This document shows positions 6,201 to 49,800 of a DNA stretch of 64,000 bases, in pieces. The DNA comes from Antedon bifida (lineage: Eukaryota; Echinodermata; Crinoidea; Comatulida; Antedonidae). The DNA lies in contig OY727099.1 in assembly GCA_963402885.1 (NCBI GenBank), forward strand, positions 27,237,001 through 27,301,000. Direction: 5' to 3'. The translations under genes were made by a program, and so were the position numbers. The notes under the pieces were generated by a model that did not search any database, was not told where the DNA came from, and was given only the letters and a program-made list of their open reading frames with translations. Positions within the stretch are counted from its first letter, which is position 1; each line of letters opens with the position of its first letter.

Positions 6201-9200
6201 GAAAGTACCTAAAAAATACAAAGTTATAATTACATATCTCGCAGGTAATGTTGAATACCTTAAATGTCAATAATGACGTAACTACGATGGATGCAATCAT
6301 GACCTTATAAGAATGTTACAAACCTTATTCCCTCCAATCATACTTAAGTATTACTAAGGCCCTATTGTATACCGGTAGTACAGTTTACAACCTCATTCCC
6401 TCCAATCACACTTAAGTATTCCTAAGACCCTATTGTATACCGGTAGTAAAGTTTCAGGGAATTATTTTTCATGATCTAATCCTTCATCAAATTTAGGTCA
6501 TGCATGATTTAAACCATTAATAAACATCATTGTTGTTTTCTAACAATTAATTCTTTTGTTAATTTAATCTTTTTAGAATAAGTTCCTGGTGGTAACATAA
6601 ATATAAATCCAAAAGAATGCACCAACCTTCCAAAATTTCTAAATGCACTTTTCACTTTTTTTCATTCCAATTTCAGTAATAATTAAATTCAACAAACTTC
6701 TTTAATTTAAAATATATTAAAGAAAATCTTACTACTTGGATTGTGTGAAAATAAAGGAATGTACTGTACTGAACATCAAGAAGTATAACCTAAAGAAATG
6801 AAGCATTATCTCAATCTACCATTTAACTTACTCAGACTTTTGCGGGACTTTCCCTTCTGTCTTCCAATATCGTAATCTTCCTTAACATGCCCCACCTTAG
6901 TATGTATATACTGTACTAACTACTAAAATAGCAAACTTTTCAAAGGGAAGTTTAGCATCCGTAAATAAATGATGATATTATAAGCTTTTGATAACATACT
7001 CGGAAAGACTTTTTGGAAATTTAACATTCATGAGTTTGCATAATTTAATATAAACCTTTTCATTTACTTTCGCTTTATAAAAAGGGCAAATTATCTGTTT
7101 AAATTTTGCTACTGCTTTGAAAATAAATCCTATCATTGGATCCTTTTTTGTGGACCTCCACTTTAAGGGAACATTTGTTGGGTCCCAAATGTGTTCCCTT
7201 AGGGTTGAAATTATTTTCAATTTATCTTGTATGTGATTAGCAGCAGTGTTATGCAATACTAAAGTAAACTAATCCTCGTACAATTATTATTTACAAATAA
7301 AGCACATTATATTCAGTTACATCAGCAGAAAGTTAGTCCTATGTAAGGATACATGAAAGATTTCATCTTATCGTCCTACAATATGGATATATTATGTGGA
7401 AACCCAAATCAGCTCTAGCAATGCAAACTTTATGAACACAATAAAATGATGATCTTAATTTAGGCGTTTTAACGTCATAAAAAGATAAATTCACAATTAA
7501 TATCTATGTTATCCCAACTGATGTATCTTTTAGCAAGAAAAGTTAGAGATATCTATGAGAAAAGCAAATATCTGGCAGATATATTACAATATCTGGCAGA
7601 TATATTACAATATCTGTTGACTTGATACGTATTATGGTTGTCATTGTTTACACTTGGTACAAGACAAACATTTATATTAGCTGCAAAATATCTAGGTTAT
7701 TATTATTAACTGATCATCTTTAAATATTTACACTGAAAATATGGTAAACTTTTGAATCAAAATAACCACCAGTAAACTAATAATTAGAGCAAGGATACTG
7801 AATTTAAAATGACAAAGAAAACTATCAATCAAAAAACAAATGAAAAGCTACAATACTGACTAAAATGTGAAGACACCGAGTCTAACAATATTGATAATTG
7901 TCGTATTCGACTGGGAACATAAATATTCGTTGAGTACTTTTTGTATTCGAATTGTAAATTTTAAACGGATTGTGCTCAACAGAAAATCATCCGAATACAA
8001 AACGTTAACGGAAAAAATGTACTCACCGGTAAAAATCCAAATCGAAAACGACAATTATCATGTTTTAAAACTGATTTTTTTTGGTAAAAAAACACTTACT
8101 TTTAAGTTGTAAAAGAGTTTGAAGATGTTCATATAAAACATCACCAGTGTAGGGAACACGGTCGTTGAAGCCATCCTTACGCAACAGACACAAAGCTTTA
8201 CCATTCATCGAAAATCTATCAACATCAATCTCATTTAGTGAAAATTCTTCAACGCACCATTTGAGCCAAATCTTTACATCTTCTTTTGTCCATAAATGTG
8301 GATATTTAGCTGCAAAAAATGTTTTGTTTAAAAAAAATGTAAAATGAATATTTGATTCATCTTACATACAAAAGATTTCTTGGAGTAGGTAATTTTTATG
8401 TGGTTTCAACAATATTGGGGATTAAATTCAGGAAACAAAACTAAGCTACTGTGCATATTAGAGATTTTGGCTATTATTATTCAAAGTATGTTGGCATGTT
8501 CACCAATCACAGGGAAACACCCTTACAGTTAAAAATTCTCATATCTAATTAAGTACTACATTAGGGAAATCCTTAAAAACTTATTTAACTTAAGTGAAAA
8601 AAGTGATTGACGGCCACTAAAGATTTAGGTTTAGGTTAAAAACAGACGAGGTAAAGATGCTTTAAATATAATTATTAATATCAAATATGACGATCTGTAC
8701 TGGGGAATTGGGGTAGGTGGTGAAAATTGAAAAATTCAGACGAGGCGAGCACCTTGTCTGCCTCATGCTGGCTACGGCCATGGGTACTGGGTGGTGGTGC
8801 CTCATGCTGGCTATGACCATGGGTACTCATAATAAAGCAGTTACAAACTAAAAAGTATTGAATTGAATTCAATAAATAAAAGATGTCTGTTACTTACATA
8901 TCGGAAAAACTGAATATGGTGAAGTTGAAGGGATTGCAACCGGTTTAGCAACTGCTGAGCCGTAGCCAATCATAGCGGACGAATGCTGATTGCCAGTAGG
9001 GCTACAGAGAGATGGATAGTCAAATGAGATGTAAGGGGGTACCACTACTGTCTGGCTTAAGGGCCGTACGGTTGAGGGTAATGCTTCATCAGACGTCATA
9101 TCGGCATATACTAAAAAAGATAGCAAATTATGTTATTATAAAGCTAATTCATCTAGTATGATTTGCTTTTTTGGTATCCAGAATACAGAGTACTGATGAA

Positions 9201-9781: not shown

Positions 9782-10580
9782 TGCAGCAGCACCAACTTGT
9801 ATTAGTGTTGTTTAATATTTGTCCCAGCAAAGCACTTATTAATACTCAAAAATGATTTACTACTGTACTGGTAAACTGAAAGATGTAGGCGGGACTATAA
9901 AAAGATAACCGGGCCTCTGGATTGGACTGCTATGGTATTGTAAACTTGTGTCAATACAATATTAACCATCCAATCAATATCTATGCTTTATTGCACTTGA
10001 ATTAACTTTTCGGAAAACAGAATTTATTTTAAGCACAAACAGACAGAATTCCTGGAAAAATAGGTGAAGCAGATAATATATTGAAGGCAGAACAAATAGC
10101 AAGGGAGTATTAGTTGAATGTAATCCTGTTTGCTGAGAACAAGTAACGTTAGGTAAATGTACATTGTGCAGAGCAGTGTAGATAGATTTGAAGGTACAGT
10201 ACATGTTCACTGTGTTATACTGTATATATTTTGGTAATTATTATTTATTCAACATATAAATATGGTACCCAAAAAAATTATGATTATTGCAGCCCAAAAA
10301 GATAAATTGCAATAATATTATCAAACTATACAACATCATCAAAGTTATGAAAACAAATACAGAAATTAAGTACAAATATTTCATAATTTTCATGATTGTA
10401 ATATTAAAAAACTAAAGTCCAAGGATGACAGATTTTGGAAGAGATGAAAGCGAGACATTGGACAAGTCCAAATGGTTTTTTGGGCAATTGGTATGGTACA
10501 TGTTGGTATATTTTTGAAGAGATAAAAATAAGATTAATTTCAGATCAGGGTCCAATGGGCTTGGAAGACATAGCAACCAT

Positions 10581-10821
10581 TTTGTTCAGTTTTGGTAGAG
10601 GTAAACACTTTATATTTTGTTCAATTTTGGTAGAGGTAAACACTTTATATTTTGTTCAATTTTGGTAGAGGTAAACACTTTATATTTTGTTCAATTTTGG
10701 TAGAGGTAAACACTTTATATTTTGTTCAGTTTTGGGAGAGGTAAACACTTTATATTTTGTTCAGTTTTGGGAGAGGTAAACACTTTATATTTTGTTCAGT
10801 TTTGGGAGAGGTAAACACTTT
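10581..10821. repeat. 35 bp minisatellite, 7 copies
   Basis: The unit is TTTTGGTAGAGGTAAACACT followed by TTATATTTTGTTCAA. The three distal copies share a GGTAGAG to GGGAGAG change, which orders the expansion. Confidence 0.92.
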
Positions 10822-10870
10822 GTACTTTAATTGGATTGTTAATCGTTTGATTGCTTAAGATGGAAAATGC

Positions 10871-15957: not shown

Positions 15958-18900
15958 TTAGAAACCAGGAGGAGGTAACACAGGACCTTTTGATTTAAAC
16001 CCTGGAGGTGGCCCAGAAGTTTTGTCTAAAAAGTTATCAGATGAAGCATTGTCTGTTTCTGATTTCTTCTCTATTATGCTATATGCTATGTCCTTTAGCC
16101 CACAACTTACTGGGCTTACTTTTGACTCACATTTTTGTTTATCTTGAGTAAACGATGTTAACATAGAATCATTTTTATCGCTTTTGGATGATTTCTTTTG
16201 TTCACAATCTGAATGTTGTCTTTGAAAATGATTCCTACTTTTGTAATTTTTCTGATCAGAATGTTTATCTTTGTTACTTTGTTTATTACTCCTCAATTGT
16301 TCATTATGTTTTAATTTATCATCATTACAATTGTTTTTTTCAACCTTGTCACTAGTACTGCTTATTTTATTTAGTAGATCACCGCTCTTAATCTCACTAG
16401 ATATACTAACAACATGATTCTGTCTTCCTGTTGTTTCAGTATTACTTGAAGTAAATTTAGTTCTTGTATCATTGTAACTAACATGATTTTCATTTGTAGC
16501 ACCTTTACCAATATGGTGTCGCTTTTCTGTTGTGGAACCACTGGATCTTTGCTGTTGACCTCTGGTACCTGATATATGATGTTGATTTCTGGTGCTTGGT
16601 CGATCATGATGTTGACCTCTGGTGCTTGGTCGATCATGATGTTGACCTCTGCTGCTTGGTCGATCATGATGTTGACCTCTGCTGCTTGGTCGATCATGAT
16701 GTTGACCTCTGCTGCTTGGTCGATCATGGTGTTGACCTCTGCTGCTTGGTCGATCATGATGTTGACCTTTTCTGCTTGGTTGATCATGATGTTGACCTCT
16801 GCTGCTTGGTCGATTATGATGTTGACCTCTGCTGCTTGGTCGATCATGATGTTGACCTCTACTGCTTGGTCGATCATGATGTTGACCTCTACTGCTTGGT
16901 TGATACTGTCGACTTCTGGTGTTTGCTGTTGAACTTTCATCTAATGTTTTTTTAGTTGAATCTTTGACCTCACAGGGATGCTCATTTTTAGTTTCATTTG
17001 ATTTGTGGCATATACTTACAGAATCAGCCTCACTATGTAGATCTCTAGCACTACTTGAATTCTGTTTGTCACCTGTTGTACTTTTATTTGCAGAAGGAGA
17101 ATCACATACATTTTGAAGTTTGTTTTTTGTCATGGAGCCACCAGATTTTGGATTAACGCTTCGAGTTGAGTTGCCACCTGAGTGAGCTTGTCGAGTTTGT
17201 TTACCATTAAAATAACTACGTTCATCTTTATTTCGCCAATGGCCTGTTTTACTGTCTTCAGTTCTATAGTGGTTATAACCTTTCTCATATTTTTTATCTG
17301 ATTGTTTAGTACGTGTTTCTTGCAAGTTCTTACTTTGTTCTGTATTTTCTTGTTTATTTCCCTCTTTTTCTAGTTTTGTATCACATTCACTTTTTTTTTC
17401 ATTATCTTTATCAGCATCACTGGCTTCTGTTTTTGACTGCTTCATATCTACTGTATTATTTTTAGGACATTCAGAGGGAATTTCAGCTTTTTTCTGATCA
17501 TTTTCATCAGAAAGCTGTCCGATTGGCAACATATCACTACCTATCACATTCTCCACATTTTCGTTTACGTTAGACTTAAACTCATTTGTTGTCTTGTTTA
17601 GATCTTCATCATTTCCTTCTTTTCTAAACCTTCGTTCTTCTTTTTGATTTGTTAGTTGTCTTTCTCTATATGTGTTGCCATGTTTGTTTCCTCTTCTTGA
17701 TTTTGTTGCTTTTGTATTTCTTTCGTCACTTTCTCTATATGCTGAAGTTTTCTTATCATCATGAAGTCTAAGGCTTGCTAAAGGAGCCGAGACGGTCTGA
17801 AGATAAATTGAACGTTTACATAATTATAAAATATAAATTGTATATAAATTAACTGACAGATTTTGGACTAAATGACTGTTGCTTATAATTACTAATATTG
17901 ATGACTAGCCAAAACAGTGGCGTAACTGCTATGGGCTAAACCCAGGGCCCCGGAGCTTATGAGGCCTCTGAGCAGTGCCCAGAAAAACAGGCATTAAAAT
18001 ATGTCAAAACAATCTGAAAATGCCGGCCTCCAGCATTGGAGGGCCACTTAGGGTTCCTAAACCAGGGGCCTCAGGCCTTTGCGTTACGCCACTAAGGCCA
18101 AATAAAGACAGAACCACACAGAAAGATTGCCAGTCATAAATGAGAAAGTTAAGAGCTTTCTAGGTTCAAGAACACTGATTAAATTATGAATATTGATTAT
18201 CAATAATGCTGGATAGTTAATCACTTACTGTTGAAATATCCAAAAGAAACTTATTGCTTTCTGCTTCCACGTCAATGATACCACCTTGATCAGCTTGTTT
18301 CTTGTACAATTCCTTCATCTTCTCCTGCCACTTTCTCATATCATCATTTGGTACAAACAATTCATCTTTATCAGATGTCAAACCAACCTTTTCAATGTTC
18401 TGTTCACTCTGATATGATATTGGTTCTCTGCAAACTGGACAGACAATCTCAAGTTGTTTTGGCGTTTGTTGTGGCATGCTTTGTTGAATCTCAGCAACTT
18501 CTTTCTCATAATCACTGGTGCAAACATCAATATACCTTTGAAGGCAACTTAGGTGAAAATAATGGTAACATTCTGTTTTTGTGAAAGAATCTTCCTCCTG
18601 TTTAAACAAAGCACACAGAAATTACTAACAATCAATCTCTATTTTCCATCATATCAAACACATTACAACATAATAAGATGAAGATTTAGGCTTACAGAGA
18701 AAACCTAAAACCATTTTATTGGCAACACATACAATAAACACTGAACCTAAATACCGTAACGATTCACACAATAGCTAGTATATGTATAATTTAAACAAAA
18801 GTGTTATTCTAAAGACTGTCAATATTGAATCTTATTTTGATTTTCACATACCTGGAAACCAGTGAGACAGACAGCACAATCACAGCTTGGTGTGTTGTTG

Positions 18901-22727: not shown

Positions 22728-25700
22728 TCAGCTTAGAACAGGTTCATGTCTAACTTCTAAAACATCTGAAAACAAAAACGGAAGAGTATTATGAAATGCT
22801 TAACATAACACCAAGTAAAATAGTTCTGAAGAAGGTAGCTAGCTGATTTTAGTAATACCCAGTGATGCTTTTGCATAGGCTTTTTATTTCTTTGTTATAT
22901 TGTATGTTATTTATTGTATTGATATTATGCAGATCGAATAAATAAACGAAAAGAAACAGGGAGAATACAAATAAATGATAAAAAAACAGCATTTTATGTA
23001 TTACCAGCTATGATCCGATGCCAAGGTAGTGTGACATAGGTCAAATGAGCATTCAATATATGTTCTTTGGATGTCTTACCTGCTATGATCCGATGCCAAG
23101 GTAGTGTGACGTAGGTCAAATGAGCATTCAATATATGTTCTTTGGATGTCTTACCTGCTATGATCCGATGCCAAGGTAGTGTGACGTAGGTCAAATGAGC
23201 ATTCAATATATGTTCTTTGGATGTTCTTCGTTTTAACCACTGCAATGCGTCTGAGCCTTGACGTGTCAATTTTACATTAGGATCTGAATTTTTTTTTAAA
23301 GTATATGAAAGCAACAATCAGTGTAGGCTGATATATTTCAAGATATAAATGTTATTTTCTACAAAATATAATGGATGTTTTGTGTGGAATGGGAGAATAT
23401 TCTTTCCATTCAATGGACATTATGATATTTATTTGTTTTTATAACACAATGTCATTTTTTCAGTAATTTGCTTTTAGATTAATATATATAATGATATATA
23501 ATTCAAATATAATAAAAATCAAAATTCTTACTTGAAAGTTTTCGTTGTCGTTCTGGTAAATCGTTGGATTCTCTAGTGAGCTCAAACAACATGCCGCTAT
23601 CTGAACTGGACTTCTTTAAACCATTCCTCGGTTGAGGAACGGGAGACGAGTTGCAAGAGCTTGAATAACGAATCTTCTATTAAAAAAAAAGAACTTAAAT
23701 GTTACAAAAAAGCAAGAATATATTAAAAATTGATTTGCCAATGTAATAAATTGTTGATAAAACGCATCAGATATTAACTGCATTGTTTTATTTATGTACA
23801 GACAGTAGTGTTCATTATTCATTACCTTATCTTAAACCTGACAAATCAATACTGTGATACAAACTTGACATTTCTTCAATTCAATGCTTCATAAATCACA
23901 TTGTAAAGGCTACCTTTAGAAGGCTGAGTATTTTGCAGCAAAATAAAACTAATTTGACTGTTTGACTGAGTTGTACATTTAAGTAAATTATAATACTACA
24001 TTTTTCAAGTATCAGAGTTCTAAAATATTCAATTACATATGTGTATTTAAACACAATTTATTTTGTAAATTTATATTCATATTTATAACAATCACTAAAT
24101 AAGTAACTTTTTCTGGTTTTTTTTATGGCAAAAACCCCAAAAATGATTACCTCTGGTGAATTTGTAACACTATTACATCCACTACCTTCGCTGCCCGTAC
24201 TATAATCGTCATAGCTACCATCTTTGGACAACCTCCTTCTATACCGACTGACCGCCATCTCTGCATGACCTTTACCCTCTGGTCCCTTCATTCGTATAAA
24301 CTCAATTCTACCATGCGCCCCTTGAAAGAATCTCATAGGTACCTTCTCAACCATCTTAGACGTCATTGTTGCCTAAAAATGAAGAAAACATAGACAGTAA
24401 AAGAAATTGAATGAAATGATTATCGGTTCTTTGCTCTTTGTTAATGTTAATGCAAGGATTTTTTTTTTCACAAAACCACATTACCAAACATTAAAAATGA
24501 AACAACCATAGTAATTGGAAATACATTTAAAATATTGTATGTTAAATTAAAATTGAGGCTGAAAGGCAGATTGAAAATAGTTACTTGATTATAATGATTG
24601 AAATAGACTTCACCTGCTTTATAATTAAGTACATGCTTAATATGAAGTAATCTTACTTTACGTAAGCCATAACATACAGTAAGGAACAGAACGAATATTG
24701 ATAATACTAAAGATTACAATGAACTTGTTGAAAGACCCAATGCCAAATTAAATGTAATTTTATTATTTTAAATTCATTGCAACTTGATTTGGAGAGAAAG
24801 TCTGGTACATGAATCAGAACCGTGATGTCTTAACTTAAGTTACTGATACTCTCAAAGGAATATGATATGTTAAGTCAATAAGTTTTTACATGAAACGTTG
24901 TACCAGAGGCAGAATCAATAAAGAACTTAATAAATTAAAGACATTGCACATGAATCACGACCACCTGCAAGCTTGTGGATTTCCTAATGTCATTACAGTT
25001 TTTAACAACTTTACAATAATAGAAATGAACTGGAACCGTCACAGAGACATCGTCAGCCATGTTGATTTGTACAAACTACAAAGTTGTCTGTTAAGTTATG
25101 TTTACACTATCAAACTAGTTTGACAAAAAAAGTGTGATGTGCCCAAATATGGTAGTGATATGCCCAAATATGGTAGTGATATGACATCATTTTGTCCACA
25201 TTTTTTTGTCACATACAGTTTGATAGTGTACAGTAGACAGTAACTATAGTACAGTAACCATGTCACCCAATTGAGATTAAAACTCAGATTCATCTACTCA
25301 GATACCAGTTTCAGAGCCGCGTTAATAATTAAGTGTGAGGGCAGTGTTGCCATTAGATCACTGAGGACTTTCACAGACGATTAGAGCCAAATTGGTTAAA
25401 AAAAGAAACATTTTTACTTTTAAAACTATACTTACCCGATTCTCATATACGCGTTTGAGTGCTTCATATCTAACACAACCAAGGAAGACAACACTACGAA
25501 AGGATCCGTGACGTTCGTTAGCAACTAGTTCCACACAAACCATCTGAGTGGCTTGTACCTTCATTCCACTAAACACCTGTTAAATTTAACATTAGTAAGT
25601 TTTGTTAAGAAATCAAATGTGTTAACATTAGTATGAACATACCTCCATGGTCTGAACAATAGTATGGTAGTTCCATGACAAAGATACAGTAATTGAGCCA

Positions 25701-28700
25701 ATGACCGATAAACAATGACCGAATTGACTGTTCCAATATTGCACTGCAATAGATTTAGTCTTATTACACCAGAATACAAATTGACACTGCAAATTTAATT
25801 GCACAAGGATTTATCAACAGAGGAAGAAATTTAATTTGTAAACTACAAATCCTTTTAGGAGAACAGGATTACAAAGCACATAGTTGTGGAAAAAGAATTA
25901 AACAAATTACACGATAGTAAAATAAATGATGAGAGTTCCAGCAACACAGCTTCAGCTTATCAAATATTATTATATAAAATCCGGTACTAAAGCTCTGTCT
26001 ACACTAACTAGTTTGACAAAAATAGTGGAGATATGCCCAAATATGGTAGTGATATGACATCATTGTGTCCATATTTGTGCACATCACATTTTTTTATCAC
26101 ATAAAGTTTGATAGTGTAGACAGAGCTTTAGCCAACCCACAACATTTTAGTACCCAAACTTGACCCAAATTCTGTTTGCAATTTTATGGTACAATGTTAT
26201 ATTATAATTGGTTTTCTGGTTGGTGACTTTAACAACGCTATAAAAATACAGAAATGTAGAAATGCAATTTGATATGTTTACATTCTGAATTCAATGTTGT
26301 AATTGGTTTAGGGATGTTGACGATACATCTTGATATGTTATCAATCTCATCTCAAGATATCAACTCATATCTAAATAGCCAACAAACCAATTATCCAGAC
26401 ATAAGCACATGCTTAACAGTTGTCATCGAAATTCAAAAACCTTTACATTTCAAAAATGTAATGAGTCCCGTAAGACGCAACCACTAGTAAATTCAAGTAA
26501 ACGTAATAATTTAGTTTTTAAAGTACTATGTAAAAGGCATTTCAAAACATTGCTTTTTTAAGTACCTACTTTTATGATTTCTTGAACCACTTAATAGAAA
26601 AGTTTTCTTACTAAAATATTTAATCTATATTAAGGTATTTATACGTTTGTTAAAATGGTACTGTCAGATTTAAGAACTATTACCTACATAATTCAATAAT
26701 TTTGTTATTTTAACAACTTTTATTAGAATATTTTAATGTTTTTCTGTAAGATTGTATTGAAGTTATTACTTGATACTGTACTCTGGTGTATTCAATCTTC
26801 ACAAAGTGTGAAATGGCGGAAAAGCAATTTGTAATCTAGTTTTCACGAACTGAAAGACATTTCACAAAGTTGTGAAAACCAATTTAAGATGAAACTTAAA
26901 TGTTAAGGGATGTATGAACAATTGTGAAATGGTTCTAAAAATATTGGAGATAAATAAATAAATGACTAAAAATAAAATGTCAACGTTTTATTGCAAAGAC
27001 TATTCATGAAAGAGATAAATATATACCTCGGGCTGATTCTAAAAAAAGAGGCTTATGAGAATAATGGATTGGAATGGATGGCTGTACTTTTACAAGATTA
27101 TATAAAGTAGAAAGATCAAGCTGTAATTGTAGTGTTATGCCTTAAGAAATGAAACAATATCAATATGGTTTATATATACTTTTATATATAATTTAAACAA
27201 CGTAAACTAATATAACTCACCTCATCATAATTATCAATTAGAAAAAAAATGTTTGGATAGGAAACTTGAGGCTCGACGCCTTTGCGATCCATCCTGCGTT
27301 TTGACGGCGAGGCAAAGACTTGTTTGTTGGAACTATGAAAAACTTGAAGTTTACCGTCATTTTTGGTACAAACAGCACAAGTTAAGATGTAATCAAACTG
27401 AAAGTAATAACATAACAATTAGTGCTTGATTAAAAAAAATTATAATTTATACAGGATGAATTTTATTTAATAACTGTTTGCTTTAATCATGTTTCAATCA
27501 ACTGGCCACATAATGATTTCATAATTTATTTATTCATTGTCATTCAAAATTTAGATAATAATGCACTATTACGTATTATTTATGCTACAGGAAAGAATGT
27601 TTTTGCTACTGCAGGTACAGTATCAAAATGATTGGAATATACTGGGAAGGTTCTAAACTACATTATTAAAACCACAAACCATGTTACACTTTAGTCACTA
27701 TTGGGACAATTTTACTTAACTATCTAAAATTCTACTTAAAAGGGTCACACAGTTATCTATTGATTGACTGAAATACTTACCTGATGTAGAATTAAATTGA
27801 GGTAAACTGTTTCTTCCCAGTCTACTGATGGATCACCTGAAATACTTACCTGATGTAGAATTAAATTGAGGTAAACTGTTTCTTCCCAGTCTACCGATGG
27901 ATCACCTGAAATACTTACCTGATGTAGAATTAAATTGAGGTAAACTGTTTCTTCCCAGTCTACCGATGGATCACCTGAAATACTTACCTGATGTAGAATT
28001 AAATTGAGGTAAACTGTTTCTTCCCAGTCTACCGATGGATCACCTGAAATACTTACCTGATGTAGAATTAAATTGAGGTAAACTGTTTCTTCCCAGTCTA
28101 CCGATGGATCACCTGAAATACTTACCTGATGTAGAATTAAATTGAGGTAAACTGTTTCTTCCCAGTCTACCGATGGATCACCTGAAATACTTACCTGATG
28201 TAGAATTAAATTGAGGTAAACTGTTTCTTCCCAGTCTACCGATGGATCACCTGAAATACTTACCTGATGTAGAATTAAATTGAGGTAAACTGTTTCTTCC
28301 CAGTCTACCGATGGATCACCTGAAATACTTACCTGATGTAGAATTAAATTGAGGTAAACTGTTTCTTCCCAGTCTACCGATGGATCACCAAGGCTGGGCA
28401 AGTTCTTAGCATCATGCTTACGGAATACTTCAATAGATGCCTAAACAAAAAAAAGTCACTTAAGAAAACAAACGATTCACATGTTCAAAAACTGTTTTCA
28501 TCTGGTTTTTTAAACGTTGCACACGTATGTATTTATTACTGGTTTAACGTAAAGAATTTTATTCACATACGTTGCACACGTAAGTATTTATTACTGGTTT
28601 AACGTAAAGAATTTTATTCACATAGATTCACATATGAAAATACAAAACAAAGATTTATTAGAATTATACTGTCAGACAATTAAGTCTGATCTAAGTTTTA

Positions 28701-31700
28701 TTTATTTTTTACTATAAATTACCAACTTGAAGAAACCAAATTATAACTTAGCATCAACTTATTAGGTACATTGGTTTCATTCAATTTAGTTTGAACTAAA
28801 GAAGAGCCTGTGAACCACCAGTTAATATAACCATGAAGGAAATATCTGTATATTTCCTCCATGATATAACAATAGTATTATATAAAGTAAAGTACCAATG
28901 AGGTTTATATCAGATATGTATGGAAATAAGTATAATATGTTTATACCTCCATGGTTATATTAAACAATAAAAAATACTCTCAGTTTTAAAATACTGTAGG
29001 TATTAACAACAACTACAACAACTTTAAATTGAGATTGTAAACAAAACTACTGTATTGTATAACATAAAATACTATTTATATCAGGTCCTACCAATGAGAA
29101 TGGCCACATTTATACAGTATATTTTATTGACTTTGATAGTAAACATATTATAAATTTATTGTTTCACTGGCAACACTGTTGGCAACATTGCATGTATAAT
29201 AAAACGTATTCAGATAATGCTACTGTAGATAAAATGTTTTTGCTGGTAGGAATTCTATTTAGGATAGTAGGATAACAGTAGGGCTATTGGATTGCTGGCT
29301 TTCAACCATATTTTACTATTAATCGCTGGTATAATACTATGTGTGTCTCTGCTTTGTATTCGTGCTTAATTTAAGCCATTTCAGGGGCAGATCCAGAATT
29401 TGTATAAGAGCGGGGAACATTAGACAATTTCATTTTTAATTTATTGATTTCAGTGCAAAGATTGTGTAGATACTGTTGGAAATTAATTAATGAGCGAAAC
29501 TTAATGAAGTGTAAATAAAAACATCTATCCCATCCATTATTCATCCTACTCATTCATTCCATTCCATGAATCTCATTCCATTCACCGCATCCATATATTC
29601 ATCCTATTCATTCAACCCCTTACATTCATTCCTTCAATTTATCCCATCCATAAATTCATCCTCATGAATCTCATGTTCTATTCAACACATTCATCCAATT
29701 CCTTCCTATCAAACTTTATTATATTAAATCCATACTTTTAATGCAAGTAAACTGTCTAACAAGTTTGACAAAAAAAGTGTGATGTGCCCAAATATGGTAG
29801 TGATATGCACAAATATGGTAGTAATATGACATCACATTTTTTTGATAGTGTAGACAGAGCTTCAGATGCAATGATTGTTTTCTTTGAAAAATTGAGGAAG
29901 TTTGTTACTGTCAATATTTTTACATCATTAAAGTAGAATAAAGCAAGTGGCATAACTAAATAACCTGGATACTAGATTAAATTGAATGAGCATTGGAGAT
30001 CAATATTTAATTACAAAACTTGACATGTTACTGAACTCAGCTGTTAATGAACTTTAACGCTATAGTAAACAAGATATTCTGTCAATCTACTAATACTGCA
30101 CAGTAGATTAAGATGACTACTCCAACTCTGACTCCTTTCTAAATTAATTCTAATAAGTCATTTCGTTTTCATTTCTTTATTAGCAATAACATGAAATGTA
30201 AAAATACATTTCTAAGAAGAATAACCGCAATTTAAAACTTGACCCCTCAGGCCAGTCATTGCATCACAAACAATTATTAGGTTTGCGAACATGTTTCCAA
30301 ATTTTCTATAAAATAGGTTGTTGAGTTACAACAGTCTTCTGTAGAAAATGTTACAAGTCTTCTGTAGCATGTGCTCAATGAATTAACATGATCTAACAAT
30401 GGAGCAAATCTAATGTTATAGCTCCATGATCTAACTAAATGTTCCTATTTACAGATGGAATCAGATACAATTTGATTCTTAAATTTTGTTGGGTAGACAC
30501 ACATATTTAACACTAAAGTGTAATATGTAATTTACTATTCCATAGAAAGCAATGATAAATGACAACATAGAATCCATGACCATTTTGGCCCTAAGAAAGC
30601 ATTGTGCTATAACATAGGCCATTAAGTATACTCCCTAAAGGTAATGTTATACACTAAGTAAATTACAACACAGTCTAAAAAGGTGAATATATTATAAAGA
30701 AATCAGTCAATTAGATAATTAATGATAATAAAAGTGTATCTATTAGAAATATTAAAATAAATAACTTTTTAAATAATACCATTTTTATTTCACTGATTTT
30801 CACCACATTTATCTTAACAATAAAAGAAATTTGGTAAAAGTGAAATATTAAATAAAAATTGTGAATGTGCGATACTGATTTAACCACCACCAAAATTAAA
30901 TAGATTGTACAGATTGTGAAACAAACATCTATATAATAATGCCAAAATTAATGAAATGAAAAAGTATTTCACCAAAAAATATTAAAAACCCAATATAAAA
31001 AGATTTGAAAAACCTTACCTGTACACACTTAGTGTTGGTAAAAAAGAAGAAAAAAACAAAACAAAAATAAAATAATAAACCATGAATTTAAAAAATTATA
31101 AAATTAAAGTCATTTCTTGACATTCATCATTTACTTCACTGTATGTTTGTACTATCTTAAAAATCAATATAAAAAAAATCAAAATTGATGTGTTTAATAT
31201 TCCAGTTGAATAATTAATGTTTATTTAACGTTTAACACGCTTATTTGATTTTAGAATTTAAGATTAATTTTCATTTGACGTTATACATTTCTAGCCTAGG
31301 TACAGATTTTTGATAAAGAACACATTTAAATCATATAAACTTCAAAATATTCCCTGGCCTTCCAAATTATTTTGGGACAAATATTGAAAAATATTGTATG
31401 GGTATTAAAAGGAGTATGGAACTGGCTAAAAAGAAACACACAAACAAGATCATTAAAAGACAAACAATTTGCTGAGAATAAATAAATGAGGTTTAGATAT
31501 TTTTTCCAGAATATGCTCATTTAAAGTAGGTACAGTAGTTGTACAGTTACTATAATAATATCCCATCCTACACTCTTACTAGAATAATCAATGATTGTAC
31601 AGATACAATAGACGCATCAATGACTCTTTCCACGGCCGTAAAAGGAACCCTGAGGCATCATCAATTTTAATATTTCCTACTCTAGAATAATTTTTATTGA

Positions 31701-32733
31701 CGTTTCATATTGAACAAACAGTACACAAATCAACAATTGTCAACGTATTACAAAAGATATGGATTTATAATTTTCTATTCAAGTTAACTGGAAGGTTTTT
31801 CAGTATGATGACATAACACTGTGATAAAGTTCAACGAACAAGGAATAAGCGAAATTTGTAATTTCATAGTACTTTTCTGGTGGCATTGGAATAAGCGGTT
31901 ATACAACAACGAAGAGTTAAGACCAAACTGACGAGTGGTAATGTGTCTATCCCGACCGGAAACCACCCGTCCGCTACGTGTTGCGTGTAAAAATGATCAT
32001 AAGGAAAACATAGATTCTATATTTATATTACCGTTACCCTTCGTCTGTGTAAATTGGCCTTCAAATAGCTATTACTATGTTGATGACAAAAAAGACAATG
32101 ATAATACAATCAAATTAAGTAATCAAATTAATAATAAATATTTATGTTTGTACCTGAGCTTCGTTACGAGTTTTGAATTCTTTCCTCCTCACAAAAAATA
32201 ACATATCGTCTCCTTGATCATCAACCTTCTCCAAAAAATGTTCTGCAAAGATTTTTGTCCAGAAGCAGTTTACATCCATTAACACATAACCACCTGGAAT
32301 GCAAATTATTATCCATAAACATAATATATTCAAATTAATCGAACATGCTTACATTCTGATTAGTTGCTCATTTTTTTGTAAAAAAATGTATGAATTTTAT
32401 TGTAACCACTTTTATTCAATAAAAAAAGTGGTTTGTAAAATTATGCAGTTTTTGACGAAAATGGCGCGCCATGAATTTAGGTGTTCCACAACCGGCGGCC
32501 GAAAGGACTAGCAGCCGAAAACCTCCTGGACACCGCTCGGACCAACCGGCCAGGTGAGGTACTGTAGTTCACAACACAACACAGGTGGTAGGCCAAGCAG
32601 AAGAGAAGGATGTTTACCTACCCAACTCATCGCATGTTGCGCCTTGTTTATCTTTTTTCCGTTCAGATATAATGTCAGAAATCATTTGATGAAAAGAACT
32701 TTGTCTTCGTGGCTTACGCCCTGTAGCTGCCAT
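22728..32733 (-). CDS. KIAA0930: KIAA0930 orthologue (uncharacterised conserved animal protein)
   Basis: Nine exons on the minus strand: 32733-32622, 32293-32154, 28440-28333, 27397-27221, 25576-25436, 24372-24151, 23676-23532, 23283-23155, 22765-22728. They join in phase to about 403 aa, essentially the length of human KIAA0930 (about 404). Matching blocks include CFWTKIFAEHFLEK, DDMLFFVRRK, GDPSVDWEETVYLNLILHQ, TCAVCTKNDG, QVFASPSKRRMD, SYPNIFFLIDN, MVCVELVANE, RYEALKRVYENR, RMKGPEGKGHAEMAVSR, AHLTYVTLPWHRI and the C-terminal DVLEVRHEPVLS. Molecular function is unknown; I recall the family as DUF2045. No signal peptide or membrane segment is evident. Exons 3 and 8 each run into a tandem array that copies the exon end and its donor site. 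The exon ends given use the first donor, because that restores the family length. Confidence 0.96.
22996..23231 (-). repeat. 75 bp tandem array copying KIAA0930 exon 8 end and its splice donor, 3 copies
   Basis: In the transcript sense the unit runs from ACATCCAAAGAACATA to ATAGCAGGTAAG: 70 nt of exon plus the first five intron bases. Donors follow 23155, 23080 and 23005. The first two read GCAG|GTAAGA; the last is weaker (GCTG|GTAATA). The array is open in the coding frame and would encode repeated EHILNAHLTYVTLPWHRIIA blocks joined by GKTSK. Confidence 0.93.
25096..25241. mobile_element. Family A MITE in KIAA0930 intron
   Basis: Nearly complete. The internal 20-mer CCAAATATGGTAGTGATATG is present twice in tandem, giving two exact CArG boxes. 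Confidence 0.8.
25990..26128. mobile_element. Family A MITE, complete copy
   Basis: The best reference copy: 139 bp from AAGCTCTG to CAGAGCTT, flanked by TA on both sides (25988-25989 and 26129-26130). One exact CArG box. In a KIAA0930 intron. Confidence 0.88.
27769..28389 (-). repeat. 69 bp tandem array copying KIAA0930 exon 3 end and its splice donor, 9 copies
   Basis: Each unit holds 57 nt of exon (19 codons, GDPSVDWEETVYLNLILHQ) followed by GTAAGTATTTCA, the first 12 intron bases. Nine perfect CAG|GTAAGT donors therefore recur at 69 nt spacing, from 28333 to 27781. The copies are nearly identical; the copy farthest downstream has one substitution (ACTGATGG for ACCGATGG). The array is open in the exon's own frame and adds VSIS between copies. 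Confidence 0.96.
28515..28623. repeat. 55 bp tandem duplication
   Basis: Two copies begin CGTTGCACACGTATGTATTT and CGTTGCACACGTAAGTATTT. In KIAA0930 intron 2, just before exon 3. Confidence 0.9.
29525..29700. repeat. Degenerate CATTC/CATCC-rich repeat
   Basis: Irregular ATTC and CATCC motifs repeat without a clean period (for example TTCATTCCATTCCATGAATC). In KIAA0930 intron 2. Confidence 0.7.
29755..29863. mobile_element. Family A MITE, partly deleted
   Basis: The left end is worn (ACTGTCTAACAAGTTTGAC). The internal 20-mer is doubled, but the second CArG box is changed to CACAAATATGG. The right end GTGTAGACAGAGCTT is intact. Confidence 0.75.
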
Positions 32734-34059
32734 GTTTCACGTCAAAATTAAAACCTGTTTTGTTTTGGCTAACTTTCCCTTCCGAAATGTTGTTTTCCAC
32801 ATCCACCACAACTCCGCTCCGCCTCTTTTTTTTTCACCACCAGCTAGGCAGAGGTTAAAGGTTAAGTTAGAACTTAATCGATCGTCCAGTAAAGTTTGAG
32901 TCGTTGGGGGCGATATTACGGTTTCTGTTTCAAGCCAGACCATGATAAATACAATGACTCTTTTTCATATACTGTACTTTAATAGTAGTTTAGTATTCAT
33001 AACATCATTATATCATAAACGGAACCATAGCCTAGGTATACGACTTGGTTCTAGTTTTTATACCGTCGATATTGTAAACTCCCACTCAAAAAAGCAAAAA
33101 GAAAATTAAAATACAAATTAAAAATCAACAAAAAATCAAGTTAAAGAGTAAACTAATATTTAATCATCTAACGAATATGAATACATTGTATTTAATAAAC
33201 AGTGTCCTGTATGTGTAACCTATTGCACTATTAAAAGTATTATTACAAATATATCAAATTAATTTTGGTAAATTTGGAATGGATAAGTTAAAGCTAAGAT
33301 TGTCAGAAAACCAAACTGAATTGTTTTCTTCTTTTACTTAGTGTTTTACTAAGCGTCGACAACTACAATATTATTTGCATATTTTTATCATTGATTATGT
33401 TTCTGCGATCACTGCATCTGCATTATCTAAAATATATTCTATTTTATTATTATTATAGACTATATGTAATTTATTATTTTATTTAATTTCAAGTACAAAT
33501 GTAATCAATTAAAAATATTATTTCAAAGAATTGGTTTTTTTGTGCAAATAACACAATCTAAGATAGAAATATATCCATAATCTAAAAGTTTAAAAAAAAA
33601 ACCCGTAAAATTTCAGTCAATATCAATGCACTGGTTCAGTGTAAAACGTAGAATCCCTGCTTCCAACCTTAAGTTAAGGGGACACTTCCCATAAATAGAT
33701 GAGGGCAAATAAATGTTTTAACTCTACTACTCCTATACTATAGATGAGGGCAAATAGATGTTTTAACTCTACTACTCCTATACTATAGATGAGGGCAAAT
33801 AGATGTTTTAACTCTACTACTCCTATACTATAGATGAGGGCAAATAGATGTTTTAACTCTACTACTCCTATACTTTGCTGTCTACTGTAAAAAAAGAGGC
33901 AATATCAAGATGCCAAAAAGTGCAATGCCACGTTGGTGAGAAACACCTTAATAAATATTTATGTCAAGCATTCCTAATGCCAATCTTGAACTAACCAGAT
34001 GCATACAACTCTTTGTGCAAATATAAACTTAAATTGAATTAAGTGAATACATTAATGTT
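32734..34059. other. Intergenic: KIAA0930 promoter side and 3' flank of the PRR13-like gene
   Basis: No gene is supported. The 32740-32940 stretch is the likely KIAA0930 promoter or 5' UTR and is less AT-rich than average, with a few CpGs. A 45 bp minisatellite lies at 33694-33873. Confidence 0.45.
33694..33873. repeat. 45 bp minisatellite, 4 copies
   Basis: The unit begins ATAGATGAGGGCAAATAGAT and ends CTACTCCTATACT. The copies are almost identical. Confidence 0.93.
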
Positions 34060-34882
34060 TTAGAACTTCAATTTATGTTTCTTGTGTTTTTTTACTTTAT
34101 GTTTTTTTCCGCCATGATAACCATAGTCACTATCAGATGAGCTACTACTGCTGCTGCTGCTACTTGAACTTGAGCTGCTACTACTGCTATGTTTTTTCTT
34201 CTTCTTTTTGATTTTCTTTACCTGAAAAATAATCAAATATCACATCAAAGTATTTATTCTCTAATTTTTAAAAATGTCTTAAAAAATTAAATATTATCTG
34301 TTGTTTTTACCTTGTGAACTGTAATACCACCTGGATGAGCAGGGTAACCAGTCTGAAAAAAAAAGCATGCATTAGAAACATCCAGTTCAACTTCTTGTAT
34401 AGTTGGTAAAAGATAAATAAGAAGATTAATACCAAGAACTATTTTTAAGGGCAAATTTTGTGCTGGGTCAGTCATAGAGAATTTCCAAAAATATAAACTA
34501 CAAAGCACTCTTATCTTATACTTACCCCAACATGTTGAGGATACTGGTTTGGTACTTGAGGATATACCCCTGCTGGGGGTGGGGCATAACCAGCAGGTGC
34601 AGGAGGGTAAGCCCCTGGGACTGATGGAGAATAGGCCCCTGGAGCTGGTGGAGGGTAGGCCCCTGGAGCTGGTGGAGGGTAGGCTCCTGGAGCTGGTAGG
34701 GGGTAAGCATCTGAGGCTGGTGGAGGGTAGGCCCCTACTGGGGGGTAAACCCCTGGGGCTGGAGGATAACCAGTTTGTTGCTGTGGGTAACTGCCTGGTT
34801 GCTGTGGGTAACTGCCTGGTTGCTGTGGGTAACTACCTGGTTGCTGTGGGTAACCACCTGGTTGCTGTGGGTAACCACTCAT
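34060..34882 (-). CDS. Proline-rich XYPPX-repeat protein with Lys/Ser-rich tail (PRR13-like)
   Basis: Three exons on the minus strand: 34882-34526, 34352-34311, 34221-34060, all phase 0, giving about 186 aa. The first exon starts at the ATG giving MSGYPQQPGG and is almost wholly Tyr-Pro repeat: five YPQQPG(S) units, then YPPxAPGA units. Exon 2 encodes TGYPAHPGGITVHK. The last exon is basic, then carries 16 serines, then SDSDYGYHGG and a Lys/His-rich end. Human PRR13 also combines a PYPP-rich half with a Lys/His-rich stretch and a poly-Ser-DSD segment, so similarity is likely, but low-complexity sequence makes orthology unsafe. Function is unknown; the tail could be a nuclear or RNA-binding segment. 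The 21 bp repeat in exon 1 is an expanding coding minisatellite. Confidence 0.65.
34770..34876 (-). repeat. 21 bp coding minisatellite (YPQQPGS)
   Basis: Five consecutive copies of a 21 bp unit (plus-strand TTGCTGTGGGTAACTGCCTGG) in exon 1 of the proline-rich gene, right after the start codon. Confidence 0.9.
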
Positions 34883-36513: not shown

Positions 36514-39500
36514 TTAATCAACGAAATATAAATTTGGTGCAGCTTTAGATGCGACTGGATAAATGTTTGTTTCTGATGGTGACGTCATCTCTACATACGG
36601 GTTCTCATTTTCTGGGTCTTTGAAATCACATTCTGCATACATGTGGTGTTCTGCTTGAGATGCGTGTCTGGCTTGTAAGTCTTCAGGAGTCAACATGTAT
36701 ACAGGGTTTTGGAATGAACCAAACTCCTCCTCTTCAAATGGAATCTTCTTTGTCGGTAGTGACGTTTCATAACATGCGACACCACTAGCCTGATCGCCAA
36801 GTTGTGGTTGAGAAATAACAGCTATTTGAGGATAAGGCGTTTCCATTATTCCAAGTTCCCCCTGCTTTTCTTTACGCCGTCTTCTAAAAAACAACCATTA
36901 TATTATATTAATTTCAGAAGGCTTAACTTAATACTTAAAGACGTTTTAGATCATGATGTCTTGAGTGAGATTTAACCAAAACAATAAATTAACTTACCTG
37001 ATCAACAATATCAATAAGATGAACACGATTAGTAGAAGACCAAGAACAACCACTGGATATAACACTGCGTCTGATAAACCATCATCTTCATCCTGTATTA
37101 CAAAACAATAATACACGTTACACATTGAAACAGGAAAGTAAACGCACACACATTGACACCGTAAAGTATACGCACACACATTGACACCGCAAAGTATACG
37201 CACACACATTGACACCGCAAAGTATACGCATACATCAACATCACAAAGTAAACGCACAGTAGGCCTACCTATCCACACCGCAAGTCGCACACATCGACAT
37301 CACAAAGTAAACGCACCGTACATAAGTACATATCGACACAAGGTTGCACACATCGACATCACAAAGTAAACGCACAGTACATATCGACACCGCAAAGTCG
37401 CACAAATCGACATCACAAAGTAAACGCACAGTACATATCGACACCGCCAAATAAACGCAAGCGTACATAAACCGTGCGCTTTCAACCGTGGTTGATAGGG
37501 GCTATTTTTTTTCAGAATCAGTTAGGCCTATTTGCAAAGGATACAGAAGTGTCTAAATAGTTAATGTTACATATTTTAGCGTCATGAACATCAATCTAGG
37601 ATTAGTCGAATATTAACTTGATAACTTTTGTTGAATCACTTTAATCTATATTTAGTGACGGTAATAACGGGAAATGGCATGACATACCACCAGATGATAA
37701 TATAATAATAATTACCGTTTGAGTTTGTTTTCCTCCTTCTTTTGGAGTAAGAAGGTCATTGTTATTTGTTTTTGAATGATCTTCAATCGGGTTACTCTGT
37801 GTTGTCTGTTCGTCCTCCATTGTCGTTTCGTAAATCATCGTTGTCTCATCCAGTATCGTTGTCTCATCCAGTATCGTTGTTTCATCAATTATCGTTGTTT
37901 CATCCAGTATCGTTGTCTCATCCAGTATCGTTGTTTCATCAATTATCGTTGTTAATACTGTTTCACACATAGAACCTATTGTACCATTTTTACAAATACA
38001 ATTATAATCGTCGATAAGATCTTGACAAACACCGTCGTTTAAACAAGGTGATGATCCACACTCATATATTTCATCAGAGCATCCCTCTCCTTCCCATCCT
38101 GGTGCGCATGTGCACGTGTGATTAGACGTACCATCTTCAAGTAAGTCCGATTCACACGTTGCGTTGTTTGCGCATGGGTTACTAATACACGCGTCCTGTA
38201 GTAGATGACATCGCGATCCTCCCCAGTTAGGCAAGCAGGTACAAACGTACGAGTCAATACCGTGTTCACACGTACCACCATTTAAACAAGGCATGTCTTT
38301 GCATTCATTAATGTCGTGGTCACACGAGGAACCTGTCCATCCAGCATCGCATATTTTGTTCCCAGAATCATCACACGTATAATGACCTTGTTCGCTATCT
38401 GTGTTCACACAATATGTTGAACATGAATCGCCATAATAGCCCTGTTGACATTTAACCCTGTACTTCCATTGTATCCTTTGTAATCAAAATGAAAGTAAAT
38501 GTTACAAACAGTGAATGTATAAATGTCGATCGATCGATATGCAAAGGAAGCCATTTCAATTATTTACATCCCTTACAACATTAGATGTATGGATGAATGG
38601 GAAGAATGGTAGTTATGGACATAAATCATGTAAAGTTTAGAAAATTAAAATAAATTGGCTTTATAAAGGTTCCCACAAGGACACAACGCAAGGACGTAAG
38701 TGCACAACGCAAGCGAATTGACCAATCACAGGCGATAGTTTAAATAATCCATCGCTTGTGATTGATCAAATTCCTCGCGTTGCGCGTACGTCCTTGCGTT
38801 TGCGTCCTAGTGGGAACCAAGCTTTATAACATAAGTGTTTTTGGTATACCTTGCTCGCGTTCCCTGGAGGACCTTCGAGATCCACGGATGTGAGTTTGAT
38901 TGGAACGGTACGGGTGTTTCATATATATTGTAAAAAAGTTCATCCACTTTGTCATCACTGTTCGATGGGTCATAATCAAAAACTGAAATCTTTATTCGAA
39001 ATCCACCCTAAATAAAAAGACATCTTTTTAAAATTTTGTTGCAAAAAGTTTGACATAAACTGTAAAATAAGAAACAAAATCAATTGAAGTCAGACGGCAG
39101 ACAGACAAACAGACACGTTTCTGTCTTGTGTAGGCCTACTAACAATAAATGCTGCTTATCTAGGACGAAGGTGAAAATAGTTTACAAAAGGTTAGTTAGA
39201 AAAGGAGAGGATAAAGAGTGTATGCAGAATGAGTGAGGATAAAACAATTGTTTTAAGCTCTGTCTACACTATTAATCTTTATGTGACAAAAAAATGTGAT
39301 GTGCCCATGATGATGTCAAATCACTACCGTACCATATTTAGGCACAACACACTTTGTTGTCAAACTAGTTCAATAGTGTAAGTTAGACACAGCTTTAGAA
39401 AGAGAATGTAGAACGATTTACCTGCCAAGACGAATGCGTTTTTGTAAACGGATTGGACACTCCGCCAGGCAAGGATGACGGAAAGTTGAAGTCATCATTA

Positions 39501-46800: not shown

Positions 46801-49800
46801 TTCCAAAAACTCATTCCAAAAAATTCAAGTAATTAATAAACACAACAATTTACGTACAATCGATACGTACATTCTATCTTTTCTTTTTGAAAAAAAATAT
46901 TTTTAAGCAATAATTTTAAATTTATACTGCATATACGACAATTATCATTCATTTAGTAGATCAGGGGTTAATAATAAACGCGTAAATGATTAATTAACCC
47001 TTGACTGACCGTTATGAATGAATAATTCTGGTAAATGGAACACAAATGTTTACCACCTGTTTAGGCATTAGATTCCTACACAGTTGGAATCATAATGCAA
47101 TCAAATTAATTCTTAAAGCGTGGGTCCCACTAGAGACACAACGCAATGGCGTACGCGCAACGCAAGCAAGTTCACCAATGATAATCCATCGCTTATTGTT
47201 CAAATCACTTAAGCTTGGTTCCCACTAGAACGTAACGCAAGGACGTAAACGCAACGCAAGCGTTTTAACCAATGACAAGCGAAGTTATAGACAGTTAGCA
47301 ATCACAAGCGAATAAGCCATCGCTTGTGATTGGTCAATTCACTTGCGTTGCGTTACGTCCTTGTGTTGCGTCGCTAGTGGGAACCACGCTTTACATTGCG
47401 TTAGTCCCTGCGTTGCGTCGCTAGTGTGAACCAAGCAGCTTAAGCCGATACGCGATCGATCATCTGGTCCTTCCATGGAGGAGAGATCATATAGTTTCTT
47501 CCTTACGGTCTTTACAACGTAATGTGAGGTCGTTACGGTTATTACATTGTCATGTTCGTTTCCATGTTCTTGTGGTTTTGTTATGACAGGCCAAAATATT
47601 AAAGTTGCGTACTGGAATGTATAGCCTACTGTTGTAGGTCTAAATGTGTTTTTTAAACAACAACACCTGCTGCAGCTTGTTACATCTAAAAATATAAACA
47701 ATACTTTGGCTTGTTACTTAACATAACACGACTTGCTGCTACAACTAGTGCTAAATTACGTGTGTAATTCAGAGAGGTTTGTCCTTGGCAGATCTTCATG
47801 TCTGTTGAACTTGATTGTGTCAATGAATGATATAGATCGTTATCTATCTTATTGTATCCCCCTTTGTTTCATTTACAGTCAATGTATTCAATCGCGTCTT
47901 TAGAACAAAGGATGAGAGATTATATCACATAAAGATAACACGTGACTGAATGCCAGCTGAACATTCATCTCATTCATACCCTGTACTCGATTCAGTCATA
48001 AATAAAAAACACATTAGCCCAAGCATAATTATGATGAACAAAATTATTTATTTTGGCCGAATTTGAGTTGGTATAGGCCTAATCGCGCAAAACAAACTAT
48101 AATATTGATGTATTGAGATAAAAATCGTTCTTTGTCGACAGACGTTATCAGAATATAATTCATCCGTTAAAGCTCTGTCTACTATAAAACTTTATGTGAC
48201 AAAACAAATGTGATGTGCCCATATATGGACATGATGATGTCATAATCACTACTATATTTGGACATATCACTACCATATTTTGGCATATCACACTTGATAG
48301 TGTAGACAGAGCTTTATATTACGTTTTCCCGTGACACATCTATGGTATGTACATGGAATCGCAGACGGTATATTTTTTGCAGTAACCCTTCATTTTGACA
48401 TTTATTGATATATCGCCAAGACTGGGTGCGACCGGCGATTATAATATCTGATAACATATATCATATACATTGACTTTTAAAATTGCATTTCGAAAGTTGT
48501 ATCGAGTTAATATGCCGTTTAATAGCAGATCCTCGTACAGTACAATAGTAATAATTGATTCCGACAAGTTAATTATTAACGCATACTGAAAACGTACATA
48601 CATACGTACGTACACATAGTAAGTCAATATTTTAATATTGATACAATTATTTATCGTTGATTGTTGATTAATACAAAAAAATGTCCCCAATTCCAATTTA
48701 TTGTAATTGCTATAAGGATATTTATTTTCCTATTCGACTTGTGTTTTATTTGTAAATGTAATGTTGAAATAGGCATATAGGGCCTATACTGAGATGTGTG
48801 TTATAATTAAATGATGAATTATGAATATAATTAAGTGATTGTGTACAGTATGATTGAATAGGCCTACTGAATGGTGAAATATATACACCGAGATATGCGT
48901 GTAATAATTGAATTCAAAGATAATAATTAGCAAAGTCTGTTTTGTGTATGATAATTCATAACTTCGATATATCAGAGAATATTCAGCTTACAGCGGATTG
49001 TATGTTTTCCATAAATTAATAATTACATTCATTTTGTTCGATTGAACATGAAATGAATGCATTTTTTTTTTAAATCCATTATTTCTATTTCGTTTTATGC
49101 TAAATAGTATAGGCCTCATATTAGTAGGAGGGATGATGTTAAAAGCGACAAAACAACATAAATCACAAAGCCTGTCACACATGCTTGACAAATGTCGCAT
49201 TCCAAATTAAAATGAAATGCCTAATCTCGCTTAAAATTTTTTCTGAATTTGAAATATTTCGAAGATTGGTTAGCGTAGATTGTAATGTCAGAGGTTAAAG
49301 TTTGTTTAATGTATTCATATTGATTTCTATTTTTATACTGGAAAAATAGACAGTAATTAATTTGTTAATGGATTATTTGTCGTGTGCTCACATTTTTGAA
49401 CCCGGACTGTTAGTATGATTAATATTTCATCATCATAATATATCATCATCATTCAATAACAATGTCATCAGTAAACAGCATTGCGCATGTTGTTACCTTA
49501 AATGTTAATTCAATTTATTCATAAATTTTTAGCATAATTGATTATGTAAATGAGCTTATTTTGATGATTAGAATGATATGCCTCAGTGACTTCAAATACA
49601 GTACATTACCAACCCTCTCATTTTTCATAAAATAATACAATATGTGGATTTCCAGAGTTAATGTTTGGATTTTGTTTTACCGGTCGTGTCACATGTCACT
49701 CGCATCAATAGCCCAGACATGATGATCCTGATTATGATTTTAACTAAAGGCTAATTTATATTAAGACTAATTGTTTTAATTTAACGTCCCTGGATGCCAC

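Follow-up and report, generated by a model that had tools for sequence, protein, structure and literature searches.

A predicted DUF2045 gene on the minus strand

The window, which is the whole stretch of 64,000 nucleotides of Antedon bifida that was analysed, carries on its minus strand a predicted nine-exon gene of the DUF2045 family, whose model was assembled manually by following splice borders and reading frames. The coding exons lie between 32733 and 22728 and, with the first donors used, are separated by introns of 248 to 3713 nt. The predicted gene begins with the coding part of exon 1 (32622 to 32733), which is followed by exon 2 (32154 to 32293). Exon 3 has 108 nt and ends in phase 0 when its first donor is used (28333 to 28440), and it grows to 108 + 8 x 69 nt, with the frame kept, when its ninth donor is used (27781 to 28440). 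Exon 4 (27221 to 27397), which has the acceptor TTTCAG before it, exon 5 (25436 to 25576), exon 6 (24151 to 24372) and exon 7 (23532 to 23676) are followed by exon 8, which with its first donor has 129 nt and ends in phase 1 (23155 to 23283), and by the coding part of exon 9 with the stop codon (22728 to 22765). All these exons are predicted.

The product of the first donors is an intact protein of 403 residues, with start and stop present. It matches the Pfam family DUF2045 with 271.4 bits, the cut-off being 25 (E 7.3e-81), and the match is unbroken, going from residue 48 to residue 269 and from position 4 to position 230 of the 231 positions of the profile. A preliminary description of this DNA had assigned the gene to KIAA0930, and the Pfam match agrees with that family, to which human KIAA0930 presumably belongs. 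A degenerate pattern made for the end of exon 3 had no match in contigs of prokaryote genomes or in viral contigs, as expected for an animal gene.

Other open frames of the window carry known domains. On the minus strand, an Ets domain (1028 to 1324) and a SAM/Pointed domain (8065 to 8361) are perhaps parts of one ETS-family gene. The open frame at 37641 to 38483 has DSL and EGF domains, as in Delta/Serrate ligands, and the EGF repeats are followed by a tandem repeat of 18 bp that keeps the frame (ETTILD). An open frame of 621 residues, which had no Pfam match at E 0.001, contains at 16576 to 16904 an in-frame repeat of 30 bp in 11 copies (SSRGQHHDRP). Rfam had no match in the window at the gathering score, and ARAGORN found no genes in it.

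Two arrays of repeated splice donors

The first array lies at the end of exon 3, at 27768 to 28389 on the minus strand, where TRF and direct reading find nine copies of a 69-bp unit. TRF gives a period of 69, 9.0 copies, a match of 99% and a score of 1237, which is the highest among its 47 rows. The copies, read directly on the minus strand, follow each other head to tail; the first eight are identical and the ninth has a single synonymous change, from TCG to TCA. Each unit is formed by 57 nt of the end of exon 3 and 12 nt of the start of intron 3, so the donor CAG/GTAAGT (the slash marks the exon-intron border) is found in all nine copies, at a spacing of 69 nt, with the first intron bases at 28332, 28263, 28194, 28125, 28056, 27987, 27918, 27849 and 27780. 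The length of the array and the identity of its copies are enough to exclude chance, and its borders share 1 bp of microhomology. The nine tandem copies of the exon end, each with a donor, as well as this division of the unit, had been recognized in the preliminary description, and its donor coordinates, from 28333 to 27781, match the last exon bases read here.

Because the unit contains the donor of the exon, the same in 9 of the 9 copies, the array has the structure of the donor-spanning VNTRs of the ABCA7 type. It is also a minisatellite at the exon-intron boundary of a coding gene, as boundary internal tandem repeats are, with the boundary taken from the predicted model. Tandem duplicated (mutually exclusive) exons were considered and rejected, since the unit begins within exon 3 and lacks the acceptor of this exon.

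Donor strength was taken as the pairing energy with the 5’ end of U1 for all GT sites on both strands of the window (n=7,411). The nine donors of the exon 3 array are the nine best of these sites, each with -14.0 kcal/mol and 11 of 11 positions paired. The six other donors of the gene, those outside both arrays, range from -13.3 to -4.5 kcal/mol, the last value being that of exon 7.

The second array, which is absent from the preliminary description, lies over the end of exon 8 and its donor, at 22996 to 23224 on the minus strand, and has three copies of a 75-bp unit according to TRF and reading. It is therefore a second donor-spanning array in the same DUF2045 gene, and it is also in frame. 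Its donors are, in order, CAG/GTAAGA, CAG/GTAAGA and CTG/GTAATA, with pairing energies of -11.0, -11.0 and -5.1 kcal/mol, so that two of the three are strong and the third is weakened. The last copy departs from the others at three positions, two of which fall within the donor motif (P 0.0217, in a test made after the fact). The simplest reading of the weakened last donor is that it is dispensable because an earlier donor is used; its -5.1 kcal/mol is still in the range of the other donors of the gene. The borders of this array share the 4-bp sequence ACAT, and the microhomology at the borders of both arrays would fit ordinary duplication or slippage. Copied borders were also sought at eight exon ends and at the seven starts of exons 2 to 8, and the shuffled controls were exceeded at two places only, the end of exon 3 and that of exon 8.

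The eight identical copies of the exon 3 array extend over 552 nt, which is beyond the resolution of short reads, and the true locus might have one or few copies, with the nine being an assembly artefact or a miscount. Such an error is quite improbable, as many other tandem arrays of different periods are found across the window. In addition, the ninth copy differs from the others and the exon 8 array has internal variants, which points to real multi-copy DNA, without proving the number of copies.

TRF returned 47 rows for the window, which were merged by hand to 30 loci with 4,030 bases (6.3%), and the window is generally rich in young-looking tandem arrays. Uniform arrays are also found at 33695 to 33874 (45 bp in 4 copies, 99%), in an open frame of 76 residues on the minus strand upstream of the DUF2045 gene, and at 10579 to 10828 (35 bp in 7.1 copies, 97%). 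The near-identity of the nine copies had been taken before as a mark of very recent expansion or homogenisation; the near-identity stands, but it is nothing unusual in this window, where several other arrays are 97-99% uniform. Some arrays lie inside coding-looking open frames (16576 to 16904, 34602 to 34878 and 37837 to 37953). The intron that precedes exon 3 holds a 55-bp tandem duplication of two copies, 98% alike, at 28514 to 28624, 74 bp from the first base of the exon. A 21-bp unit (GTGATATGCCCAAATATGGTA, counting close variants and both strands, as judged by eye) occurs in short tandem runs at 25134 to 25183, 29779 to 29828, 48245 to 48291 and 62301 to 62360, and this dispersed unit might represent a mobile element that carries a variable repeat inside it.

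Random placement of the arrays would put at least two of them on the eight donors of this gene with P 0.00055 for the five loci with units of at least 55 bp and P 0.00484 for the 25 loci with units of at least 18 bp, in a test that was devised after both arrays had been seen and that takes the donors of one gene only. When either a donor or an acceptor could be covered, the values were 0.00244 and 0.019, respectively. The test used 31 of the 47 TRF rows, 16 being removed manually because they gave alternative periods or sub-arrays that overlapped, and the rows with a unit of at least 55 bp that are not among the five loci are those at 9190 (65 bp), 34752 (63 bp), 37227 (59 bp) and 37228 (113 bp). 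These probabilities are a hint that arrays which cross a donor are tolerated because their extra copies fall into the intron.

Reading frame and use of the later donors

All 27 combinations of donors (9 x 3) are open to the normal stop. The open frame through the exon 3 array, read directly, and the insertion of (k-1) x 23 residues by donor k, which the gene model reproduces, are as the preliminary description had them. With a period divisible by three and with the ancestral phase, there are just two free codons in this array where a stop could fall, and the probability of an open frame is 0.856 at this base composition; the sequence of the exon 8 array has no free codon. The open frame is nearly automatic because the period is a multiple of three, so it says little by itself and is not evidence of use. 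Periods that are multiples of three are also found in 8 of the 19 arrays with units of at least 18 bp that were counted as non-coding, a label assigned from open frames, with a gene model for the DUF2045 gene only; the dispersed 21-bp family accounts for four of the eight. In this tally the period of the locus at 9190 was set to 65 bp, while TRF also gives 33 bp for it. That both donor arrays have such a period is an event of about 1 in 9.

The exonic differences between copies are synonymous in three of three cases, one in the exon 3 array and two in the exon 8 array, and in the extended frame all four copy differences fall on third positions. Among all possible single changes, 37 of 171 are synonymous in the 57 exonic nt of the first array, and 46 of 198 in the first 66 exonic nt of the second, a count that omits the last codon, itself the site of one difference. 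Two of the copy differences read as CpG transitions. Three synonymous differences out of three are unusual and might be a weak hint of coding constraint, but the counts are tiny and the copy under constraint is not specified, so they were not used as support.

A length-tunable splice switch would make use of several donors of the exon 3 array and produce proteins with 0 to 8 extra blocks of 23 residues, and with 0 to 2 extra blocks of 25 residues at the exon 8 array. The complete U1 pairing of nine donors that surpass every other GT site of the window speaks for it, as do the 27 open combinations, the two periods that are multiples of three and the synonymous exonic differences. Transcripts that keep the repeat are also common in human boundary cases, where they accompany 66% of the intron modifications (PMC2812944). 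We consider such a switch unlikely, because inclusion of the exon 3 array would split the DUF2045 match in two, an open frame is expected at about 0.86 with such a period, 8 of 19 arrays counted as non-coding share this kind of period, and the last donor of the exon 8 array is weakened.

A protein with all copies kept would have 637 residues, and its DUF2045 match is indeed divided in two stretches. Full inclusion of the exon 3 array would put 184 residues inside the match, while the insert of the exon 8 array would lie beyond it. This long protein scores 388.4 bits against DUF2045, which is above the 271.4 bits of the single-copy protein, because the repeated pieces score again. AlphaFold2 models the read-through array with strands only and no helix, with a mean pLDDT of 83.7 and a pTM of 0.78 (the five models go from 83.7 to 47.4). 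As AlphaFold2 is described in PMC11795689 to give confident models for random perfect repeats, the model was not used as evidence.

The arrays might go further and work as a dosage device, in which the choice of donor, the length of the protein (403 to 637 residues) or the inclusion of the exon would shift with copy number and with the supply of U1. Nine full-length U1 sites would crowd exon 3, and copy number would be a rapidly mutating dial in the population. This seems very improbable.

Splicing inside the exon 3 array can also be imagined, from the donor of one copy to an AG in a later copy, which would make a poison exon or be an intron gain in progress. Splicing to the AG created at the junction of two units would shift the frame and read VIHR, or VIHQ into the ninth copy, before a stop at the fifth codon, while splicing to the CAG of CAG/GTAAGT would be of the recursive type and keep the frame. 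The preliminary description, which proposed a self-limiting poison exon, is right about the frame shift and about the stop within five codons, which were computed here, but the proposal is weakened by the poor placement of the acceptor that it needs. The junction AG has another AG 8 nt upstream, whereas in the eight predicted acceptors of the gene such an AG is at least 17 nt away or absent from the 40 nt examined, and the nearest distance from donor to AG in the array is 13 nt. For the CAG of CAG/GTAAGT as acceptor, the nearest upstream AG is at 26 nt, and this objection does not apply to it. The pyrimidine fraction of the junction AG, 0.47, is low; it equals that of exon 5 and is above that of exon 8.

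A small and weak acceptor matrix, built from the eight predicted acceptors of the gene, places the junction AG in the top 9.6% and the CAG/GTAAGT site in the top 11.7% of the 3,275 AGs of the minus strand. In leave-one-out, both outscore the acceptors of exons 2 and 8, but the other six of the eight acceptors score better than the junction AG. Tandem duplication of segments with AGGT has been described as a way in which new introns arise (the Rogers model), as in the RdRp of potato (PMC4974935) and in Drosophila (PMC2891723), and 24-bp repeats in fission yeasts are cited in PMC4974935. The exon 3 array resembles the cases presented in these sources in having tandem copies of a segment with AG/GT. 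It differs from them in that the copies were added at the 5’ border of an intron that was already there, and the acceptors in the copies are only candidates. Both AGs are present in the copies and the stop after VIHR is real, and still a poison exon or an intron gain here is highly improbable, since the junction AG follows another AG at 8 nt, as no predicted acceptor of the gene does, and the intron is not new.

Known systems and the preferred interpretation

The arrays of exons 3 and 8 are best filed in a kind already in print, that of the ABCA7 VNTR and of human boundary repeats, in which the long exon part of each copy and the presence of two arrays in one gene are unusual. The VNTR of intron 18 of human ABCA7, as presented in PMC5954066, has a 25-bp unit with the exon 18 donor at its beginning, and its alleles reach 9,711 bp. 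In 2 +/- 1% of transcripts the donor of the next unit is used and one unit is retained; decay may lower this figure. In ABCA7, as here, the array lies at the end of an exon, the unit carries the donor and the donors are repeated. The ABCA7 unit starts at the GT of the donor and is out of frame, while the present unit of 69 bp has 57 nt of exon and is in frame, and there are two arrays in one gene.

Human segmental duplications contain boundary internal tandem repeats that are either kept or spliced out (De Grassi and Ciccarelli, PMC2812944), and in Table 2 of that source the coding “intron” cases with units over 60 bp are six in frame and one out of frame. The present arrays are likewise minisatellites at an exon-intron boundary that may be kept or spliced out. 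The human repeats in that source vary between recent paralogues and have transcript support, whereas here a single gene is considered. The SmPoMuc genes of Schistosoma mansoni repeat a 27-bp exon 2 together with its flanking introns in units of about 1 kb (PMC2576457). In both, in-frame exon sequence is multiplied by the number of genomic repeats, but only the end of the exon and the donor are repeated in the DUF2045 gene. In the literature on KIAA0930, no tandem array in the KIAA0930 gene was found among the matches listed.

The two donor-spanning minisatellites are probably spare intron sequence, with the first donor mainly used, the later copies leaving with the intron and a low level of in-frame leakage. 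A short duplication across the border of exon 3 and intron 3 of this KIAA0930-like gene would have grown by slippage to a minisatellite of nine copies, and a separate duplication would have produced the array at the border of exon 8. Each copy would restate the end of the exon and its donor, and the first donor would end the exon at its ancestral place. Most splicing would join the first donor to the usual acceptor downstream, and the array could grow without harm because the later copies would be removed as intron. A later donor used at a low level would add multiples of 23 (or 25) residues in frame. The arrays would then be young and, we infer, have no regulated function.

The first-donor model, with its intact protein and its DUF2045 match in one stretch, argues for this spare-intron reading, together with the weakened last donor of the exon 8 array, the repeat-rich window, the microhomology at the array borders, the restriction of copied borders to two exon ends and the precedent of ABCA7. 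Several observations go against it. The nine donors of the exon 3 array are equal in U1 pairing, and nothing local favours the first one. The last donor of the exon 8 array (-5.1 kcal/mol) is no weaker than that of exon 7 (-4.5 kcal/mol) and need not be dead. Two arrays on the donors of one gene are more than random placement gives, and their two periods in multiples of three are left to luck. The protein with all copies scores higher against DUF2045, the insert of the exon 8 array is outside the match, and the synonymous exonic differences are a weak hint of coding constraint. As to the human cases, the 66% with a transcript that keeps the repeat (PMC2812944) also weighs against it. The 2% isoform of ABCA7 is frame-shifting and rose when decay was blocked, so the true use of later donors there may be higher (PMC5954066).

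If transcripts use the first donor only, the gene would be a clean natural case of a splice border that was copied many times without harm. If several donors are used, one pre-mRNA would offer nine identical donors in competition, a natural ladder that would directly test how the spliceosome chooses between 5’ splice sites that are equal but lie at different distances. Two donor arrays in one gene also raise the question of whether minisatellites persist more readily at donors, with their additional copies becoming intron.
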